From Candidatus Woesearchaeota archaeon (GTDB lineage Archaea; Nanobdellota; Nanobdellia; SCGC-AAA011-G17; UBA489), in the NCBI GenBank assembly GCA_018655015.1, contig JABIKK010000008.1, positions 72,791-126,550 of the forward strand: a DNA stretch of 53,760 bases, in the 5' to 3' direction. Position 1 is the stretch's first letter. Each line of letters opens with the position of its first letter. The notes under the pieces are model-generated. The model did not search any database. It saw only the letters and a list, made by a program, of their open reading frames with translations, and was not told the origin of the DNA. Both the position numbers and the translations under genes were made by a program. Below are positions 790-26,224 of this stretch, piece by piece.

Positions 790-2818
790 GTCTATTTTTG
801 TTGGGATGTTTTTTCTGTATTCAATTATTCTTTCTGAAAAATCTTTGTCAGGTACCATGAATTCCCATTGAGATAGGGATTCTACTTCACGCCATCTTAC
901 TGGGATAAACTCGTGGGTTTTTAATATTCCTTCTGTATCTCTCGCTATAATTTGCATTATTCTCTCAGTGCCGTCAACTTCTCCCTTTGGAGGTCTTATG
1001 CCATGTCTTTTGTAGGTTTCTCTGTATCCTGTGGACGTTCCATCTTCTGGGAAGCTTATCTCATAGAATATATCTCTTGGCGTGGCACCATATGGGCCAT
1101 CTTCATTAAGCTCTGTTAGGGTTACGTGTGGAGAATACCATCCCACATTAGCAGATTTAATGTCAATTGGGTCTTGATCTTTTCCGATTACAACAGGGAT
1201 TCTTTTTTTTTGCAATAACTTTTCCCGGATTAATGAAGGTGACGTGTTTATCATTTTTCTCTGGAGCATCTAATTCTACGACTAGTGTTTGTGTTCCATC
1301 TTCTATTCCTTCGGGAACAATTATAGATTGCCAAGAGGATCCAATTGGTGCTTCTGCACTATCCATTTTTGATTTATCTGCAGACATTGGATATACTGAA
1401 AATTCTTTTCCTTCATAACCTTCAAAATATATTCTTCCTCCGAGTGCCGATGTGAAGTCAGTAAACCTGTTGTTTCTAGGTCTTGCTATTTCTTCGGCGT
1501 ATACTGTGATGAACATTTTTTCTCCTGGCTCTGCTCTTACGAATCTATCTTTTGGGTATCTGTTGTCGGACTTCCCTCCAAGAGTTAGGTTTGCGTCGAT
1601 ACTAACTAGGTTGTTTCTTATTTCTAGTGAATGGCCATCAAATTCTCCACCAACTTGGTATTTTTCTGCTTCAACTACTTGAGCTTCAAGATTAAGATTT
1701 CTCTGATGTAGTGTTCCGCCTGCAATTCCCATTCCCGATAGTAATGTTAATCCTGTAAGCCCTGCAGCAATTGCTTTTTTCTTATGTTGTTTTAACTTTT
1801 CTATGAATGTTGGTTTACTTGCTTTTTCAAATTCTTCTGCTAATTCATTAACTGTATCATAACGTGCATCCATGTCACTTGTTAGACATCTTTTAATTAC
1901 ACTACCAAATCTTCTTGCTTCTTTCGGTAAACTATCTATTGCTTTTTCTAAAGATTTTTCATATCTTTTTGGATCTACATGGCCTGCATGATCAAGTAAA
2001 CTTCTACCAACAATTCCATCCACCATTGTTCCTTCATCTGGGTTTGCTTCAAATGCGTAGTTTCCTGTTAGTGCAAAGAATAAGTTTGTTCCAACTGCAT
2101 ATAGTTCTGATTTTATATCATACGCTCTTTCTTTTCCAGTAAAGGTGCTCCAATCAAATGGATCTGTAATCCAATGTTTACCTCCAGTGGGCATTGCTTT
2201 TGGAGTTGGTTCACCTACATTACAGAAGTTGGCTAGATCGGTGATTCTAACTTTTGGAGTTTTGCCGTCGTTGTTAACTAAAACATTGAATGCACTCAGA
2301 TCACGATGATAGATTCCTACATCCTCAATTAAGTATCTTTCACCTTCAATTACTTGTTTGAAAACTTCTCTTACATCAGTTGTACTCAATGGCCCCTGTT
2401 CTCTTACTAAGCTTTCAAGAGTTCTTCCATTAAAGTGAGGTTCAACGGTTACCGTTCCAAGACCTAAATTACTTAGATCTGCGAAGTCTAGCAATCTTGT
2501 AACATTATGTGCTTCCGGGTCCTTTAGTTTTGCAAGTGCTTTGAGATCGTTGGTTGTGTTGTATCCTCTTCCGACATGCCTTAATGCACGTGGACTTGTT
2601 AGTTGACTAATTGGTTTATCTCCTTTGATGACCCTTACTTCTTCTCCTGGTCCCCATGTTGCTAGGCGAGTCCAGCGAGTACCACCTTCTTCAAAAGGCT
2701 CTCCAATTTCATATTTTTGACCTAACTCTCTTTGAAGTATTTCAACTAAATCTTCTGGTTCCGGATCTGCGGTTCTTTCTAGTTTAAGGAGGTGATTGGT
2801 TGTACTACGGTGCATCAT
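769..2818 (-). CDS. Hanks-type Ser/Thr protein kinase with C-terminal TM segment and extracytoplasmic domain; appears split by a 1-nt frame break in a homopolymer (ORFs 1163-2818 and 769-1269)
   Basis: Catalytic loop HRDLSAFNVL, DLAN in place of DFG, TM segment AIAAGLTGLTLLSGMGIAGG. SD aaggaggct upstream of ATG. Deleting one A from the A9 run at 1203-1211 joins ...NPGKVIAKK to RIPVVIGKDQDPIDIKSANVGWY... of the downstream ORF. Confidence 0.75.
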
Positions 2819-5976: not shown

Positions 5977-6702
5977 ATGTTTTATTTAATTGGTATTGGG
6001 ATGGGGGATGAGAAAGACATTTCCGTTAGAGGTTTGGAGGCTGTTAAGACTTGCAGTAAGGTTTTCTTAGAATGTTATACAAGTAAGTTGGTTAATTTTG
6101 ATATTAAAAAAATGGAAGAGCTTTATGATAAAAAAATAATTTTAGCTGATAGATATATTGTGGAAAAGAAATGTGAAGAAGAGATGTTGAATGTTGCTAA
6201 AGAAGAAAATATTGCATTATTAATTGTTGGGAGTCCATTGGGGGCTACAACGCATTGGGACATATTAAAGAGAGCAAAGGAATTAGGAATTAAAACTGAA
6301 GTTATTGACAATGCTGGAATTTTAGGGGCCGTTGGTGTAACTGGATTAAGTTTGTATAAATTTGGAAGAGTTGTAACTATTCCCAAAGATAATGACAATG
6401 TTAAAAGCCCTTATGAAATGATGTTAAAGAATAAAGAAATGGGATTACATACTTTGATTTTGTTGGATGTTGGTAGTGTTGATGGTGAATTTGAATTAAT
6501 GACTGCTAAAGAGGGATGTAATTATTTGGTTAAGAGTGGTTTTGAAGGAGAAGTTATAGTTTGTGGTGGTTTAGGTAGTGAAAACCCAGAGATTAATTTT
6601 GGTGATGTTAATTCTTTGAGTGTTAAAAAATTACCCCAATGCTTAATTGTTCCAGGAGATCTTCATTTTATGGAAGAAGATGTTTTGAATAGTTTTAAAT
6701 AA
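5977..6702 (+). CDS. dphB: Diphthine synthase
   Basis: MFYLIGIGMGDEKDISVRGLEAVK..., GSPLGATTHWDI, NAGILGAVGVTGLSLYKFGRVVTIP typical of Dph5/DphB. Confidence 0.92.
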   Translation: MFYLIGIGMGDEKDISVRGLEAVKTCSKVFLECYTSKLVNFDIKKMEELYDKKIILADRYIVEKKCEEEMLNVAKEENIALLIVGSPLGATTHWDILKRAKELGIKTEVIDNAGILGAVGVTGLSLYKFGRVVTIPKDNDNVKSPYEMMLKNKEMGLHTLILLDVGSVDGEFELMTAKEGCNYLVKSGFEGEVIVCGGLGSENPEINFGDVNSLSVKKLPQCLIVPGDLHFMEEDVLNSFK

Positions 6703-6723: not shown

Positions 6724-7944
6724 ATGTATAAAAGAAGAGGTCAAGGTGCACTAGAGTTCTTAATGACTTATGGTTGGGCCATACTTGTTGTAGTTGTTGT
6801 TTTGGTCTCATTAAATGTATATTTCTCTTCAGATGCTCAATTTGTAGTACCAGAAACTTGTTTTTTAGGTCCAGGGTTTGCTTGTAATGATTTTGCAGTC
6901 TATGAAGACTCACTTACTCTTGCAGTGGTTAATGGTATGGGGAAGAGTTTGGAAGGAATTTCAATACAAAATTCTCAATGTTTGGGAGATCCAAATTCAA
7001 TTACTTTAGAGAATGGTGAAGAAAGCTTTCTTGTTTTGGATGGATGTAATTTTAATTCGGGAGATTTATTTTCAGAGAATCTAAACTTAAGTTATTCGTT
7101 TTTAGGGAGCAGCATTATGCATTTAAGAGAAGTTAGTATAACTGCATTTGTGCAAGCTGCGTTAAATTCTATTCTTTTCCTTGAAACAGATTTAGAAGAA
7201 GGGACCATTCCACTTTTTTGGGACATACAAAGGAATAATTCTCAGTCTATTTTAGTTGTTAATGATCCTGATCCATTAAGGGATGGTAATAATGTTTTGA
7301 AATTTAATGTTGACTATTTGGATTTTGCAGTAAATTATGATGCGACTGCGAACAAGAGTAGGGCCGAATTAGCTCTTCAAGATGGTTCTGCAGATCTTTA
7401 TCCCATGAATGATGTACCTATCTTTTACGGTTGGAGTATTTATTTTCCTGAAGGTTATGAATACAATGTAAGTGCGCAAGACAGGTTTAACATTATTGGG
7501 CAATGGTACCATCGGGCATATCCAGATACACCTGAAGCTTGGCAGGAATGGTTGGATGCACACGGTGGCAGAGGTATGCCTCCATCTGTTCATGTAGAAT
7601 ATGAGGAGAGAGCTAATGGTGAAAGGGGAGTTGGTATTGCTTGGAAACCTACTCCCGAAACTCCTGCAAGTTCTATTGGGGAAATGGGAATAAATCTGGG
7701 AGAATGGAATGATTTAGTTTTTGAGATAAAATGGTCTACTGAAGATGACGGCTATATCAAGGCTTGGTTAAATGGGCAATTATTTACAGATAAATCGGGC
7801 ATTATTAATATGTATAACCCTACTCCCAAAAAACTTAAAGTTGGACTTTATAGGGGCCCAAGTGCTAGGATGGAAAATACTGTTTATTACGATAACATTA
7901 GAATTGGTGGATCTTATGAATTAGTGGATCCAAGTAACTATTAA
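6724..7944 (+). CDS. Pilin-like protein with class III signal peptide and C-terminal heparin lyase I-like (polysaccharide lyase fold) domain
   Basis: N-term YKRRGQGALEFLMTYGWAILVVVVVLVSLNVYF; C-term IIGQWYH...LGEWNDLVFEIKWSTEDDGYIKAWLNGQLF...KVGLYRG...NTVYYDNIRIGG resembles PF14099-type lyase fold. Confidence 0.75.
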   Translation: MYKRRGQGALEFLMTYGWAILVVVVVLVSLNVYFSSDAQFVVPETCFLGPGFACNDFAVYEDSLTLAVVNGMGKSLEGISIQNSQCLGDPNSITLENGEESFLVLDGCNFNSGDLFSENLNLSYSFLGSSIMHLREVSITAFVQAALNSILFLETDLEEGTIPLFWDIQRNNSQSILVVNDPDPLRDGNNVLKFNVDYLDFAVNYDATANKSRAELALQDGSADLYPMNDVPIFYGWSIYFPEGYEYNVSAQDRFNIIGQWYHRAYPDTPEAWQEWLDAHGGRGMPPSVHVEYEERANGERGVGIAWKPTPETPASSIGEMGINLGEWNDLVFEIKWSTEDDGYIKAWLNGQLFTDKSGIINMYNPTPKKLKVGLYRGPSARMENTVYYDNIRIGGSYELVDPSNY

Positions 7945-7988
7945 GCCTTTTAAAAAGATTTAAATAAATACTCGTTGAATTCTAAGGT

Positions 7989-9692
7989 ATGTATGGGAAA
8001 AGAGGTCAAGGTGCACTAGAGTTCTTAATGACTTATGGTTGGGCATTATTGGTTGTCTTAGTTTCATTAGGTTCTTTAACTTTTTATTTTGGTTATGACA
8101 GTAGTTCTTTTGCAAGTGAAACTTGTTTCTTAGGACCTGGTTTGGGTTGTAGTGATATGATGGTTAATGAAGACTCAATGTCTCTCAATGTCAGAAATAG
8201 TCTTGGAAAGGACATGACTAGCTTTTCTATTTCAAGTGTTAATTGCGGTATTCCGTCTTATAGCCCTAGAGTTGACAATGGTGATGAAGCTTTGTTAATT
8301 TTATCCGAGTGCAGTTTTACTGCAGGAGATTTAATTGATGAATCTCTTGACGTTAGTTATACTTTTTTAAATAGTAATTTGGATCACATTAAAGACGCTT
8401 CTTTAACTGCTGTTGTTGAAAGTGGATATGCACAAAGTTTTGGTGGTGGTTCTGGAGGAGGTGGTTCCGGAGGATATGGTACTGATGGGAATACTACTGC
8501 ATTGTACAAATTTGATGAAGGAACTGAAAACTTTATAGGAGATTCTAGTGGGAATGGTTTAGACGGATTTTTCTTTGATGACACTGTGGCTTTAATGCAT
8601 ATGGATGGTGATAGGGATGATTTGAGTGCTAATAACATTCTATTTTCTTGTACAGATTGTCCTGCTTATATTAATTCAGATGTTAGTGGCCAAGGTCTTT
8701 TGTTTGATGGGGTGAATAATGGCCTCCTTGCAAGTTGGAGTCAAGATTTTGATGACGAGTTAACTTTAGAAGCCTGGTTTAGGTATGATGGTGCTGGTTC
8801 AGGGAATTCAAATAGGATTTTGGAAATTACTGACAGTTCAGGAGGTTCAATTAAAAGTAGTGCTATTGTTGTTGACATTAATAACGACATAAGGGCTTGG
8901 GTTTATTGTGATGGTGCAAGGATAACCACTAAGGTAGAAAATGGTGTTCAGTGGTTGGATGGAGCATGGCATCACATAGTCTATACTCATGGAGGAATTA
9001 GTGGTAAAATTTACATTGATGGAGTTAATCGGGCTCAAACCGATACATCTTGTACGGATATCGAGAACTATGAAAAGTTTTCTGTTGGAATGCTATACCT
9101 AAATGGAGATAATAATTTTAAAGGCGGTATTGATGAACTTTCTGTCTATAAGCGCGCAATTTCAGCCACCGAAGTACAGGAGCACTTTGCTTCAAAGGTT
9201 GCTGAGTTTTCAGGATGGAGTGCAGGAAAATATGGTTCTGCAGTAGAACTTTATGGGGACGCAAATTATATTCAAATTCCTTATTCAACTAATCTTGAGT
9301 TTACAGATCAGTTTACTTTAGAGTTTTGGTTTTATCCTACAAATATGGATCTTGAAGATCAAAGATTGGTCCATAAAAGTGGTAGTTGGGGAGCTTATAC
9401 TCATTTGGGGGGCCTAGTATTTTTTGTTGATACTACCGAAAGTGGCGGCGGCAGAGAAATTATAGTAGAACCACTTTCTTCAGGTAGTTGGTATCATTTT
9501 GCTGGATCTTATGATGGACAAAATATGTTTATGTATGTTGATGGTGTTGAAGTTGATGATTCTCCAAAGGCTCTAGCAGAAAATATTGATACTAGTTCCG
9601 CTAAGTTGTTCATTGGGTCCGACGGGGGCGCAAAGTTTTTCAATGGATTAATTGATGAGATTAGGGTAAGTGATTATGCGAGGTATAATTGA
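7989..9692 (+). CDS. Pilin-like protein with class III signal peptide, Gly-rich linker and LamG domain interrupted by a second LamG domain
   Basis: YGKRGQGALEFLMTYGWALLVVLVSLGSLTFYF; linker SFGGGSGGGGSGGYG; LamG signatures ALYKFDEG..DSSGNGLDG and SWYHFAGSYDGQNMFMYVDGVEVD...FNGLIDEIRVSDYARYN. Confidence 0.8.
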   Translation: MYGKRGQGALEFLMTYGWALLVVLVSLGSLTFYFGYDSSSFASETCFLGPGLGCSDMMVNEDSMSLNVRNSLGKDMTSFSISSVNCGIPSYSPRVDNGDEALLILSECSFTAGDLIDESLDVSYTFLNSNLDHIKDASLTAVVESGYAQSFGGGSGGGGSGGYGTDGNTTALYKFDEGTENFIGDSSGNGLDGFFFDDTVALMHMDGDRDDLSANNILFSCTDCPAYINSDVSGQGLLFDGVNNGLLASWSQDFDDELTLEAWFRYDGAGSGNSNRILEITDSSGGSIKSSAIVVDINNDIRAWVYCDGARITTKVENGVQWLDGAWHHIVYTHGGISGKIYIDGVNRAQTDTSCTDIENYEKFSVGMLYLNGDNNFKGGIDELSVYKRAISATEVQEHFASKVAEFSGWSAGKYGSAVELYGDANYIQIPYSTNLEFTDQFTLEFWFYPTNMDLEDQRLVHKSGSWGAYTHLGGLVFFVDTTESGGGREIIVEPLSSGSWYHFAGSYDGQNMFMYVDGVEVDDSPKALAENIDTSSAKLFIGSDGGAKFFNGLIDEIRVSDYARYN

Positions 9693-11566
9693 TGAATAAA
9701 AGAGGGCAGGCAGCACTAGAGTTCTTAATGACTTATGGGTGGGCTTTAGCTGTAGTACTTGTTTCGTTAGGTTCTTTAGTTTTTTATTTTGGTTTTGATG
9801 GTTCTTCTTTTGCAAGTGAAGCTTGTTTCTTGGGACCTGGTTTAGGTTGTAGTGATATGGTTGTTGATGAAGGTTCTATATCGATGAATGTTAGAAATAG
9901 TCTTGGTAAGGATATAATTAGTTTTTCTGTTTCAAGTGATAGTTGTACTTCTACTTCGGATCACCCAAGAGTAAATAATGGGGATGAAGTTCTTTTATTT
10001 TTGTCTGGTTGCAGTTTTACTGCAGGAGATTTAATTGAGGAATCTCTTGATATTAGTTATACTTTTTTAGATAGTAATTTAGATCACATTAAAGATACTT
10101 TTCTAACTGCGGTTGTTGAAGGGGGAAGTTCCCAAAGTTTTGGTGGAGGTTCTGGTGGAAATGGTTATGGTTCTGATGGTAATACTATTGCATTGTATAA
10201 ATTTGATGAAGGAAATGGTGAGATTATAATGGATGAAAGTAGTAATAATTTGGATGGAACTTTTATTACTTTAGGAGAATTGGTTGATAATGGCGATGCT
10301 GAGACTGGAACAACTTTTAATTTTGATAATTTTGAAGGGGTTCGTTCAAGTGGTTGTAGTGTTGGGACTTATTGTTTCTATCGTGGATCCAAACCTTATA
10401 ATGTTATGAGTGAGGAATTTATTGAGATTGATATGTCTAAGGAATATACTCTAAGGGGGAGGTTTAAATCAACAGGAATAGGGAAGAGTTTAGTTTATTT
10501 TGGGTATGCTCCTTTTGATGAAAACTATGTACAAATTAGATCACAAGAAGTTAATCCATATATGCCTGCAGTTGAAACAACACTTTATGAACCTATAGAA
10601 TCTACAGATAAAATAATAAAAATAACTGACGGTACTGGGTGGGCTATAGGGTCCTCCAAGTTCATTGTATTTAATATACAGAATGGCTATGCAGATTTAC
10701 CTAATAGGGATATTAGCGAGGGGAATATAGTTCGTGTTGAAGACATGAGGCCGGCTCAACCTTATTGGGAAGTTGAATTTAAAGAAGTGGTTGGTGTTGG
10801 GCGTTCTGCGGGTACTAGTATAAGAGAGCATTTTAGCGGAGGAACTTATATGTATGAGGCTGGAAATGAAGAATATATCCCTAGTTCTTGGGAAGGCCAT
10901 ACTGGCACAACAAGTGGTGAACACACTACTGGTATTGGATTTGATAAATGGTGGCCAGGAACAAAATATGCGAAGGTATTATTTTTGCTAAATTTTCAAC
11001 AAAATGAGTTGGGGGATGATTATAGCGTTGACGTTGACGATATTTCCATGGTGAGTGATCCTGTAACATTCACTGATAAATGGGTTCCTGGTAAGTTCGG
11101 AACTACAATAGAGTTTAATGGGGTTGATGATCACGTGGAAATTCCTTATACTTCTGTTCTTGATGTTAATGATGAGTTTACAATTGAACATTGGATATAT
11201 CCAACTATTTTCTCTCCAGGGAATAGTAGGATTGTACAAAAAACAGGTTCTTGGGGAACTTTTACAAATGAACCTGGAGCAATCGTGTTTTATGGGGATA
11301 CTTCTGAAAGTGGAATGGTTGGTTCGGGATGGAAATCAATTTCAAACATACTTCCAAACACAGATCAATGGTATCATATAACTGGAGTTTATACTGGTGG
11401 AGAAATGAAACTTTTTGTAGATGGTGCACTTGTAGATTCTAGAACTCAATTGGGGGATGTGGATATCTCACAAAGTAATTTATTTATTGGTTCTGATGCA
11501 GGGAATAGTGATTTTTTTAATGGATTAATTGATGAAGTTAAAATAAGTGATTATGCAAGGTACTAG
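9692..11566 (+). CDS. Pilin-like protein with class III signal peptide and LamG domain interrupted by a CBM-like beta-sandwich domain
   Basis: NKRGQAALEFLMTYGWALAVVLVSLGSL; ALYKFDEGNGEIIMDESSNNLDGTF ... KFGTTIEFNGVDDHVEIPY ... FFNGLIDEVKISDYARY; ATG at 9692 overlaps the TGA (9690-9692) of the previous gene. Confidence 0.8.
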   Translation: MNKRGQAALEFLMTYGWALAVVLVSLGSLVFYFGFDGSSFASEACFLGPGLGCSDMVVDEGSISMNVRNSLGKDIISFSVSSDSCTSTSDHPRVNNGDEVLLFLSGCSFTAGDLIEESLDISYTFLDSNLDHIKDTFLTAVVEGGSSQSFGGGSGGNGYGSDGNTIALYKFDEGNGEIIMDESSNNLDGTFITLGELVDNGDAETGTTFNFDNFEGVRSSGCSVGTYCFYRGSKPYNVMSEEFIEIDMSKEYTLRGRFKSTGIGKSLVYFGYAPFDENYVQIRSQEVNPYMPAVETTLYEPIESTDKIIKITDGTGWAIGSSKFIVFNIQNGYADLPNRDISEGNIVRVEDMRPAQPYWEVEFKEVVGVGRSAGTSIREHFSGGTYMYEAGNEEYIPSSWEGHTGTTSGEHTTGIGFDKWWPGTKYAKVLFLLNFQQNELGDDYSVDVDDISMVSDPVTFTDKWVPGKFGTTIEFNGVDDHVEIPYTSVLDVNDEFTIEHWIYPTIFSPGNSRIVQKTGSWGTFTNEPGAIVFYGDTSESGMVGSGWKSISNILPNTDQWYHITGVYTGGEMKLFVDGALVDSRTQLGDVDISQSNLFIGSDAGNSDFFNGLIDEVKISDYARY

Positions 11567-11567
11567 G

Positions 11568-11801
11568 ATGGACAAACTAATTCCTGTTAAGGTTAAGAAA
11601 ACTGGTTGTAAAAAAACTGAAATTATTTCTGAGAATGGAGTTGTTGAGCTAAATGTCAAAGGTAAGCCTGAAAATGGTGGAGCTAATTTAGAGATAATTA
11701 AATTTTTTTCAAGAAAATATAAGTGTAATGCTCGGATTATTAGAGGTTTGAAGTCTAAAATAAAAGTTGTTAAGTTATTACTTTTTAGTAGTAAGACTTA
11801 A
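11568..11801 (+). CDS. DUF167 / YggU family protein
   Basis: MDKLIPVKVKKTGCKKTEI..ELNVKGKPENGGANLEIIKFFSRK.. GxANxxlixxl core of DUF167; ATG at 11568. Confidence 0.8.
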   Translation: MDKLIPVKVKKTGCKKTEIISENGVVELNVKGKPENGGANLEIIKFFSRKYKCNARIIRGLKSKIKVVKLLLFSSKT

Positions 11802-24283: not shown

Positions 24284-26224
24284 ATGGGTATGTTAAAAAG
24301 GGGAGTAATTGGGATTGTATTTCTTTTTATTTTATTATTTTCTTTAGGAATTGTAAATGCAGAAATTATAGTTAATGGTCCTGATCAGGCTAAAGTTAAT
24401 ATTGGTGATGAGATTGGGATCACAGGTTATGTTTTACGTGCGGATGATGTTTTAGGGTTATTGAGATTTGAATTGAAGTGTGCAGAGTCGTCCGATGTAT
24501 TAATGGTTAGAAGTGTTAGTTTAAATGCAGGTGTTAAGAAAGATTTTAGTGATGAATTTGCAATTTTATCTGCTAATGAGGGCGATTGTAGGGTCGAGGT
24601 TTCTTTAGAGAGTCTGGGAGATGTGTTGGAGAGTAAAACTTCTACTAATTTTGAAGTAACTTCTGCTTTAACTGGGACATTTAAAATTGATAAAGAAGGA
24701 ATTCAAGCTGGAGAATCAATTCATGTAAGCGGGAATGTGTTCAAGCAGGGGGGAGATGCTGTTGAAGGTTTTGCGATCATTAGTTTGAAAAAAGATGGGG
24801 ATATTTACTTCTCTGATTCTGTTGATATTAAGAAGGGTGCTTTAAAATATGATGTAGATACAACTGATGTTCCTGGTGGAGAGTATACTGTTGAAGTTGA
24901 TGCTAGAAATAACTTTGGGAATCTAGTTATTGCTAATGCTGGAGTGTTTACCTTAATTAGTGAAATAGAAGTTAATGCACATTCTGCTAAAGTACATTAT
25001 TTGCCCAAGGAAAAAGTGAAGATTACTGGAACTGCAAGTGTTCTGGGTGGCAAGTTAAAGAGCGGAATTGTTTACATCACTATGGGTGAAAATAAGTATG
25101 ACACTAAAGTGAAGAGTGGGAACTTCGATTTTGACTTTTTGTTATTGAATGTTATTGAAAGTGGAAAACATGATATTGAAGTAAGGGTTGAGGATGAGAG
25201 TGGTAATTTTGGAATTCATAGTTTTTCTATAATTGTTGATCCAATTCCTACAAAAATTGTTATAGTTGCTGATAAAGAAGCTATTAATCCTGGAGAAAAG
25301 ATTTCGATTAGGGCTTTTTTGAGAGATCAAGCATCTATTGATATTGATGAGTCAATTACATTAAAAGTTGTTAATGATAAGAATGAAGAGTATTATGATT
25401 CTGTTAAGAATACTGGTGAAGAAGCAATTGTAACACTTGCAGAGGATGTTGTTCCAGGAAATTATTTTATTAGGGGTACCTTTGGAGATATCGAAGGAGA
25501 GAAAATATTTGTTGTTGGAGAAGTTGAATTACTGAATTATGATTTAGATGGACAGTTATTGGTTGTGACTAACGTGGGAAATATTCCTTATGAAGGACCT
25601 TTGCAAATAGAAATGTCTAGTTCTACTAAAACTTCAAGTATTTCTAGGAAGCTTAATTTAGGTGTTGGACAGGAAGAGAGGATAGACTTAGGTATTGATA
25701 GAGTTACGGGAGAGTATGATATTATTGTTAACGATAATGTTTTTGATGATGTTCAAGTAGTTGGTGTGGAGAAGAATAATTATCTTCTTTGGATAGCTTA
25801 TGTTATTTTAGGATTAGTTATACTCTATTTATTGTTTAATTTGTTGAAGAAAATAAAGGGGAGGAGGAAAGTTAGATTTCATACAAGACCAATTACTCCT
25901 GTTGTAAGAAGACCTGAACCAAAAATAAACCATATGGAGATTAAAAAGAAAATTGAAATGAAAAATGAAGTTGTTGAGAAGATTGAGCCTAAGGTTTTGA
26001 AAGAGGAACCAAAAAGAAAACACGTTAAGAGGGGATTATTCTCAAGATTTAAGAAACAAAAAGATGAGGAACCTTTGAATATTCAGAACGTTTTTAGTGG
26101 TGTTGACAAGGGGTGGGTAAGGGATAATGATGTTAAAGTTCATGATTACAAGGAAGCTGGCGATCTTGCAAGCGAACCCAAGAAGGTGAAAGATCTTGCA
26201 AAAGAAACTAGATCTCCTGAATAA
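24284..26224 (+). CDS. Cell-surface protein with signal peptide, tandem Ig-like beta-sandwich domains, C-terminal TM and basic cytoplasmic tail
   Basis: N-term GVIGIVFLFILLFSLGIVNA; repeats GEYTVEVDARNNFGN..., SGKHDIEVRVEDESGN...; TM WIAYVILGLVILYLLFNLL; K/R-rich tail. Confidence 0.75.
   Translation: MGMLKRGVIGIVFLFILLFSLGIVNAEIIVNGPDQAKVNIGDEIGITGYVLRADDVLGLLRFELKCAESSDVLMVRSVSLNAGVKKDFSDEFAILSANEGDCRVEVSLESLGDVLESKTSTNFEVTSALTGTFKIDKEGIQAGESIHVSGNVFKQGGDAVEGFAIISLKKDGDIYFSDSVDIKKGALKYDVDTTDVPGGEYTVEVDARNNFGNLVIANAGVFTLISEIEVNAHSAKVHYLPKEKVKITGTASVLGGKLKSGIVYITMGENKYDTKVKSGNFDFDFLLLNVIESGKHDIEVRVEDESGNFGIHSFSIIVDPIPTKIVIVADKEAINPGEKISIRAFLRDQASIDIDESITLKVVNDKNEEYYDSVKNTGEEAIVTLAEDVVPGNYFIRGTFGDIEGEKIFVVGEVELLNYDLDGQLLVVTNVGNIPYEGPLQIEMSSSTKTSSISRKLNLGVGQEERIDLGIDRVTGEYDIIVNDNVFDDVQVVGVEKNNYLLWIAYVILGLVILYLLFNLLKKIKGRRKVRFHTRPITPVVRRPEPKINHMEIKKKIEMKNEVVEKIEPKVLKEEPKRKHVKRGLFSRFKKQKDEEPLNIQNVFSGVDKGWVRDNDVKVHDYKEAGDLASEPKKVKDLAKETRSPE

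Follow-up and report, generated by a model that had tools for sequence, protein, structure and literature searches.

A tandem array of putative modular type IV pilins with carbohydrate-related domains in a Woesearchaeota genome

Results

Three consecutive genes (P1, P2 and P3) lie on the forward strand of a 53,760-nt stretch of archaeal DNA (contig JABIKK010000008.1, positions 72,791 to 126,550), here called the window; coordinates below are counted from its first letter, and those of the array and its borders all refer to the forward strand. The window belongs to a Woesearchaeota metagenome-assembled genome (MAG) of 700 kb (16 contigs, completeness 92%), and the MAGs closest to it in sequence bear the name Candidatus Woesearchaeota. 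The window genome is designated G000 and the compared relatives G001-G005. An initial annotation, made from the sequence alone, had reported three consecutive open reading frames (ORFs) at these positions from a probable DPANN cell; the ORFs are where it put them and the Woesearchaeota origin agrees with the second suggestion. The source archaeon is tiny and probably host-dependent.

P1 (6724..7944, 406 aa) is predicted to encode a modular pilin with a polysaccharide lyase domain; its orthologue in G004 (405 aa, 66% identity) occupies the identical slot. P2 (7989..9692, 567 aa) encodes a putative modular pilin in which one LamG domain is nested within another (PF13385 in two stretches, 1.2e-45), and P3 (9692..11566, 624 aa), defined by its ORF and a G004 orthologue, has an unassigned module nested in a LamG domain. 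The start of P3 is most likely the ATG at 9692, one codon downstream of the listed TTG at 9689. Because the P2 stop and P3 start overlap by one base and only 21 bp separate the upstream dphB-like gene from P1, P1-P3 are probably carried on a single transcript.

All three proteins begin with a head of about 148 aa (P1, aa 1-148, 6724..7167; P2, 7989..8435; P3, 9692..10135). The P2 and P3 heads are 41-46% identical to that of P1 and 77% identical to each other. Searched against the genome, a head profile scores P1-P3 at 1e-86 to 1e-92, and the next match (7.7e-55) is another modular pilin, so the similarity is far beyond chance. The leaders (MYKRRG|QGALE in P1, MYGKRG|QGALE in P2 and MNKRG|QAALE in P3) are basic, end in Gly and are followed by Gln at +1, Glu at +5 and a hydrophobic helix, as in EppA-type class III signals; +1 Gln and +5 Glu mark EppA substrates (PMC4371748). 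Q7 and E11 are invariant in an alignment of 30 related pilins, and PF04021 gave no match to P1-P3 at E≤1. Profile, alignment and leaders thus bear out the shared class III signal, alpha-1 and head of about 150 aa proposed initially, while the two conserved cysteines proposed with them are in fact four (C46, C54, C86, C108).

AlphaFold models of the heads support their reading as type IV pilin heads. The P1 head, modelled from a 30-sequence alignment, forms a helix at residues 5-35 followed by eight strands up to residue 142, i.e., the long helix and beta-rich sandwich of a pilin, with a predicted local distance difference test score (pLDDT) of 85-97 in most blocks; values for the P3 head are mostly 84-93. 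Among 350,542 chains searched with Foldseek, the Pyrobaculum calidifontis type IV pilus (8fk7) ranks first, at a modest E of 1.3e-3, and a Sulfolobus adhesive pilus ranks 16th; the head profile found no sequence relative among solved structures. A pilin-like N-terminal fold, on which the initial annotation had staked its reading, is therefore favored by AlphaFold and Foldseek alike. In each of P1-P3 a domain that is not pilus-specific lies C-terminal to the complete pilin moiety, which is the architecture of a modular pilin.

The C-terminal domain of P1 (aa 158-393, 7195..7902) matches the polysaccharide lyase family PF14099 over practically the whole profile (positions 2-210 of 210; E = 1e-29; 104.4 bits against a curated cut-off of 29.9), as expected from the heparin-lyase-like domain first suggested there. 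Its only solved relative found is glucuronan lyase A of Trichoderma (TrGL, family PL20, 2zzj; hidden Markov model match, E = 2.7e-8), the catalytic residues of which are Arg51, His53, Glu55, Gln91 and Tyr200 (Asp206) (PMC7601620). The tyrosine of the P1 motif LKVGLYRG aligns with Tyr200 in the tool alignment. Across four lyase homologues differing by up to 49%, no variation is seen in this tyrosine, in a Q-W-x-H motif or in a glutamate, and the lyase domain of P1 is more conserved than its head (70 vs 60%). As judged from sequence, lyase activity of P1 is plausible.

PF14099 is rare in the phylum, with matches at E≤1e-5 in 5 of 371 genomes; it is borne on a pilin in the window genome and G004 only (2/371 in the phylum, 2/103 in the order). 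These two genomes also each encode an anchored lyase paralogue, ~52-54% identical, with one N-terminal transmembrane (TM) segment and an acidic Asn/Glu/Asp-rich linker, located in both species beside an NHL-repeat propeller gene (G000:C13 near 160.9 kb, L143:1501-2664, reverse strand; in G004, L144:1063-2244). The lyase probably joined the pilin head in the common ancestor of G000 and G004, and the anchored paralogue may perhaps have been its source.

P2 and P3 have Gly-rich linkers, as the initial annotation had noted, unlike P1, which has none. In P2, a Gly/Ser linker (SFGGGSGGGGSGGYG, 8436..8486) is followed by the first strand of an outer LamG domain (LYKFDEG..DSSGNGLDG, 8490..8573), identified by alignment and by motif spacing relative to single-LamG pilins. 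An inserted LamG module (8580..9194; second PF13385 stretch, with a sequence match to domain 4 of AbnA, 5hon, E = 5e-4) separates this strand from the remainder of the outer domain (9213..9689; PF13385, aa 423-565). In P3, the first strand (LYKFDEGNGEIIMDESSNNLDG, 10184..10267; by alignment and as model strand 165-170) precedes an inserted module of ~260 aa (10271..11056), which is mostly beta and 53% and 44% identical to its counterparts in G004 and G001, respectively. The remainder of the P3 outer LamG (11069..11563; Pfam, 3.7e-26) is modeled fairly confidently and retrieves laminin LG domains and the AbnA carbohydrate-binding module (CBM) 5hon in Foldseek. LamG/ConA-like domains (PF13385) are thus recognized by both profile and fold. 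The proposed LamG+LamG arrangement of P2 holds; of the CBM-like+LamG arrangement proposed for P3, the LamG stands, and the CBM-like part matched no CBM family. The general claim that the C-terminal domains are carbohydrate-related is upheld by Pfam, the 2zzj match and Foldseek.

The second modules of P2 and P3 are not placed in tandem with the terminal LamG but, by their motif spacing, are nested inside it. In single-LamG pilins of the genus, the first-strand motif (LLKFEE..DSSSYGNDGT) and the second-strand motif (GYFGTGIELDG) are spaced 33 residues apart. The spacing grows to ~245-465 residues in P2, P3 and six genes from relatives, with the extra module exactly between the two motifs; this module is the ~260-aa one without a family or a LamG that has a first strand of its own. 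The pattern search missed the first-strand motif in P2, P3 and the G004 gene, where it was located by alignment instead. The nesting site inside the terminal LamG is therefore fixed across eight genes from four species. P2 and P3 also match phage structural PHROGs, through their LamG-bearing C-termini only, and P1 matches none; a phage tail-fibre origin was rejected. A match to NCBIfam TafC was also set aside, as it falls far short of the cut-off (53.7 against 410 bits) and covers the LamG part, and a literature search on TafC returned nothing relevant.

Phylogenetic analysis of 52 heads unites every modular head sampled from the genus (14 in total) in a single clade (support 100/99), with stand-alone pilins, including that of the window genome, outside it, which argues for a single origin of the modular heads. 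P1 clusters with the G004 orthologue (100/100); support for its grouping with P2 and P3 is less firm (88/96).

The modular genes occupy three chromosomal slots with 0-3 copies by species. Slot A, the one in the window, is bordered on the left by the dphB-like gene (5977..6702; PF00590 and synteny) and on the right by a yggU/DUF167 gene (11547..11801; PF02594 and synteny); it holds three genes in G000, two in G004 and none in G001, G002, G003 and G005. Where it is empty, the dphB-like gene adjoins yggU or the two are parted by unrelated sequence. In G002, slot A contains an unrelated 415-aa protein gene in place of pilins (L185:7508-8755, reverse strand). Slot B (between a PIN gene and a 94-aa gene) holds one gene each in G000 and G004, three in G001 (counted by joining two contigs through an exact 140-bp overlap), at least one in G002 and none in G003. 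Slot C (between a rad50-like gene and a 482-aa gene) is empty in G000 and G004 and has one gene in G003, two in G001 and two in G002, the second of which continues onto another contig. The single head clade and the variation among slots together suggest that effectors have been exchanged on one inherited chassis.

Over codons 1-65, paralogues a, b, e and f of G001 share 89-98% protein identity and 82-91% codon identity at shared residues, while codon identity to a G002 homologue is 58-62% despite similar protein identity; over codons 66-150 the protein identity of the paralogues is 39-61%. This pattern, which spans slots B and C, is the signature of gene conversion acting on the 5' part that faces the filament in G001. 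In the window genome, homogenization is weak (P1/P2, 68% vs 44%). Recent exact copying within the array was rejected, P2 and P3 being 81% identical over 530 nt (head, linker and first LamG strand); P1 and P2 have one 45-nt exact stretch only, which also counts against it. Pilin 5' ends break the assemblies of several MAGs of the genus, and the pilin genes at these contig ends fit 5' repeats.

The head profile matches 202 of the 371 phylum genomes. Complete pilins in the best 77 GTDB loci comprise 99 short proteins and 13 of ≥260 aa, and long family members outside the genus carry LamG, MAM, beta-helix, CBM96 or TSP1/fn3 domains (e.g., beta-helix, L175:118-1929, forward strand; TSP1/fn3, L095:3986-5467; MAM, L169:237-1463, reverse strand, all from other families of the phylum). 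One further family pilin ends in a dockerin-like region with EF-hand-like repeats, seen by eye and with no Pfam match (L167:328-1104, reverse strand). Several DPANN lineages thus have modular pilins, in keeping with the initial expectation that LamG-like pilins are plausible there, and the genus of the window shows a clear expansion. Besides P1-P3, the window genome encodes a fourth modular pilin (G000:C4, 364 aa, head plus LamG, 7.7e-55) and a stand-alone family pilin of 158 aa (1e-20), cut by the start of contig C8. Contigs C4 and C8 overlap identically over 82 bases, within the 5' end of a stand-alone pilin gene (L043:1-90, reverse strand; L044:2-478, forward strand) and are therefore probably adjacent.

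Pilus machinery, for which a genome-wide search had been proposed, is encoded in G000. One locus combines a T2SSE ATPase (1.8e-34) and a KaiC-like ATPase with two T2SSF platform proteins and class III pilin-like genes. The genome also has a further ATPase/platform locus and an A24 prepilin peptidase (292 aa, GGGDTK motif); assembly ATPase, platform protein and prepilin peptidase are thus all present. An ATPase on contig C8 was excluded as a pilus ATPase because its 600-aa frame begins PIN-like. Since Archaea lack PilT (PMC4858521), its absence would carry no meaning. Elsewhere in the window are genes for a 646-aa protein with MG2 and Ig-like domains (24284-26224, forward strand), perhaps a further surface protein, and a 551-aa protein-kinase-like protein (1163-2818, reverse strand; PF00069, 7.5e-14).

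Discussion

We favor, with a probability of roughly 0.6, the reading that P1-P3 are modular type IV pilins that present glycan-binding modules and a putative lyase on a filament. An EppA-type prepilin peptidase would cut the leader at G|Q, and alpha-1 and the beta-sandwich head would then enter a type IV filament, the bulk of which is probably formed by the family's 158-aa stand-alone pilin, with the modular pilins joining as minor subunits. Their C-terminal modules would hang from the tip or side of the filament on short or Gly-rich linkers, where the LamG modules may hold glycans and the P1 lyase may cut an acidic polysaccharide, thereby stripping capsule or S-layer glycan, releasing the grip or feeding the cell. 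Effectors would be swapped on an unchanging head, sometimes as a whole module (LamG for lyase) and sometimes at the fixed site inside LamG. Surface pili of this kind would probably grip sugars on other cells or particles and might also trim them, a picture that agrees in part with the host-attachment or glycan-processing pilus suggested initially. A broader and more tentative proposal, to which we give distinctly less credence, is that the pilus tips of a host-dependent archaeon form an evolving receptor repertoire, built on one pilin chassis with a homogenized filament-facing 5' end, effector exchange (whole or at the fixed site inside a LamG) and a copy number over three slots that differs between species; one tip would have an active lyase, letting the pilus both bind and cut the glycans of its target.

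Several observations weigh against the favored reading. The modular genes are distant from the machinery genes, and the P3 insert has no Pfam match at E≤1 and a low-confidence model, making it CBM-like at best. Among the TrGL catalytic residues only Tyr200 is secure in P1 by tool alignment; Gln91 is kept by motif but is one column off in the alignment, Glu55 is kept by motif reading alone, and the position of His53 is Arg. The lyase part of the P1 AlphaFold model is poor (pLDDT ~35), the two-sequence alignment being too shallow for the full P1 fold to be judged. The loss of His53, together with the change of Arg51 to Lys and the loss of Asp206 (all by motif reading), would suit a P1 pseudo-enzyme in which PF14099 has turned lectin and the set is purely adhesive, a reading that gives all three pilins one kind of function and is compatible with the pilus, minus the cutting. 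The residues kept invariant among the four divergent homologues and the stronger conservation of the lyase domain than of the head argue the other way, and we regard a pseudo-enzyme as unlikely, though worth keeping in view.

The distance from the ATPase loci would also be expected if the three proteins were membrane-held adhesins, with the class III signal serving as an anchor through alpha-1, the head as a stalk and no polymerization. The same genomes do display the lyase domain free of a pilus, on the plain one-TM anchor of the paralogue; but a mere anchor would not require that an entire pilin head be retained, and the homogenization of the filament-facing first 65 codons in G001 and the presence of a stand-alone pilin of the same family in the window genome also make such adhesins improbable. 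Lyase and binding modules are the usual toolkit of polysaccharide use, and a short pilin-type structure might bind and degrade free or particulate acidic polysaccharide (e.g., from algae) as food. The isolate names of relatives, SI047 and SI072, resemble those of what are presumably Saanich Inlet marine MAGs, which we counted in favor of such scavenging. The Sulfolobus bindosome shows that assembly is possible for sugar-binding proteins bearing class III signals (PMC4858521). The genome is small (0.7 Mb), however, no catabolic cluster lies beside P1-P3 (a genome-wide search for uronate catabolism was not made), and the role generally assigned to DPANN LamG proteins is host recognition or adhesion (PMC10266531, PMC7414124), and we consider scavenging improbable as well.

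How DPANN archaea recognize and hold their hosts is largely unknown. A published DPANN genome study found pilus machinery but did not annotate pilins (PMC9563170). The family described here, found in more than half of the sampled phylum genomes, supplies such pilins, including a subset with identifiable and assayable predicted binding or cutting modules, and the species-variable slots make it possible to test whether pilin repertoire is linked to partner range.

Parts of this arrangement have counterparts in known systems. The Epd pili of Methanococcus maripaludis resemble P1-P3 in their K/R-G|Q site, Glu at +5 and larger-type prepilin peptidase, but no grafted carbohydrate modules are described for them (PMC4371748). 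The P1 lyase domain matches TrGL at the domain level and keeps Tyr200, but TrGL is a secreted fungal enzyme whose His53, Arg51 and Asp206 are not kept. LamG surface proteins of Nanohaloarchaeota and Undinarchaeota are thought to contact hosts or mediate adhesion, but are not described as pilins (PMC10266531, PMC7414124). In bacteria, modular pilins have 264 architectures, with PF13385, the module also found here, among the 15 commonest; in that survey, which searched for the motif IPR012902 in bacteria only and does not mention archaea, the predicted enzyme modules are peptidases and no lyase is mentioned (PMC8179133). The closest likeness is to PilC of Streptococcus sanguinis, a modular pilin with a ConA-like lectin that was shown to bind glycans and was modeled at the pilus tip (PMC9934059). 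Like P1-P3, PilC joins a class III pilin moiety to a C-terminal ConA/LamG-type module on a linker, and its system likewise includes plain major pilins and another modular pilin, PilB. Unlike P1-P3, PilC is bacterial, the likeness being one of description as the pilin moieties were not sequence-compared, and its one lectin stands beside an Ig domain in tandem instead of being nested; it has no enzyme module and a single pil locus. The initial annotation had called a lectin/lyase pilin set unusual; modular LamG pilins are already known and common in bacteria, whereas what is unusual and new here is the fusion to a lyase, the nested swap site and the slots whose content varies by species. A lyase borne on a pilus, provided that it is active, would take modular pilins beyond adhesion to the cutting of glycans.
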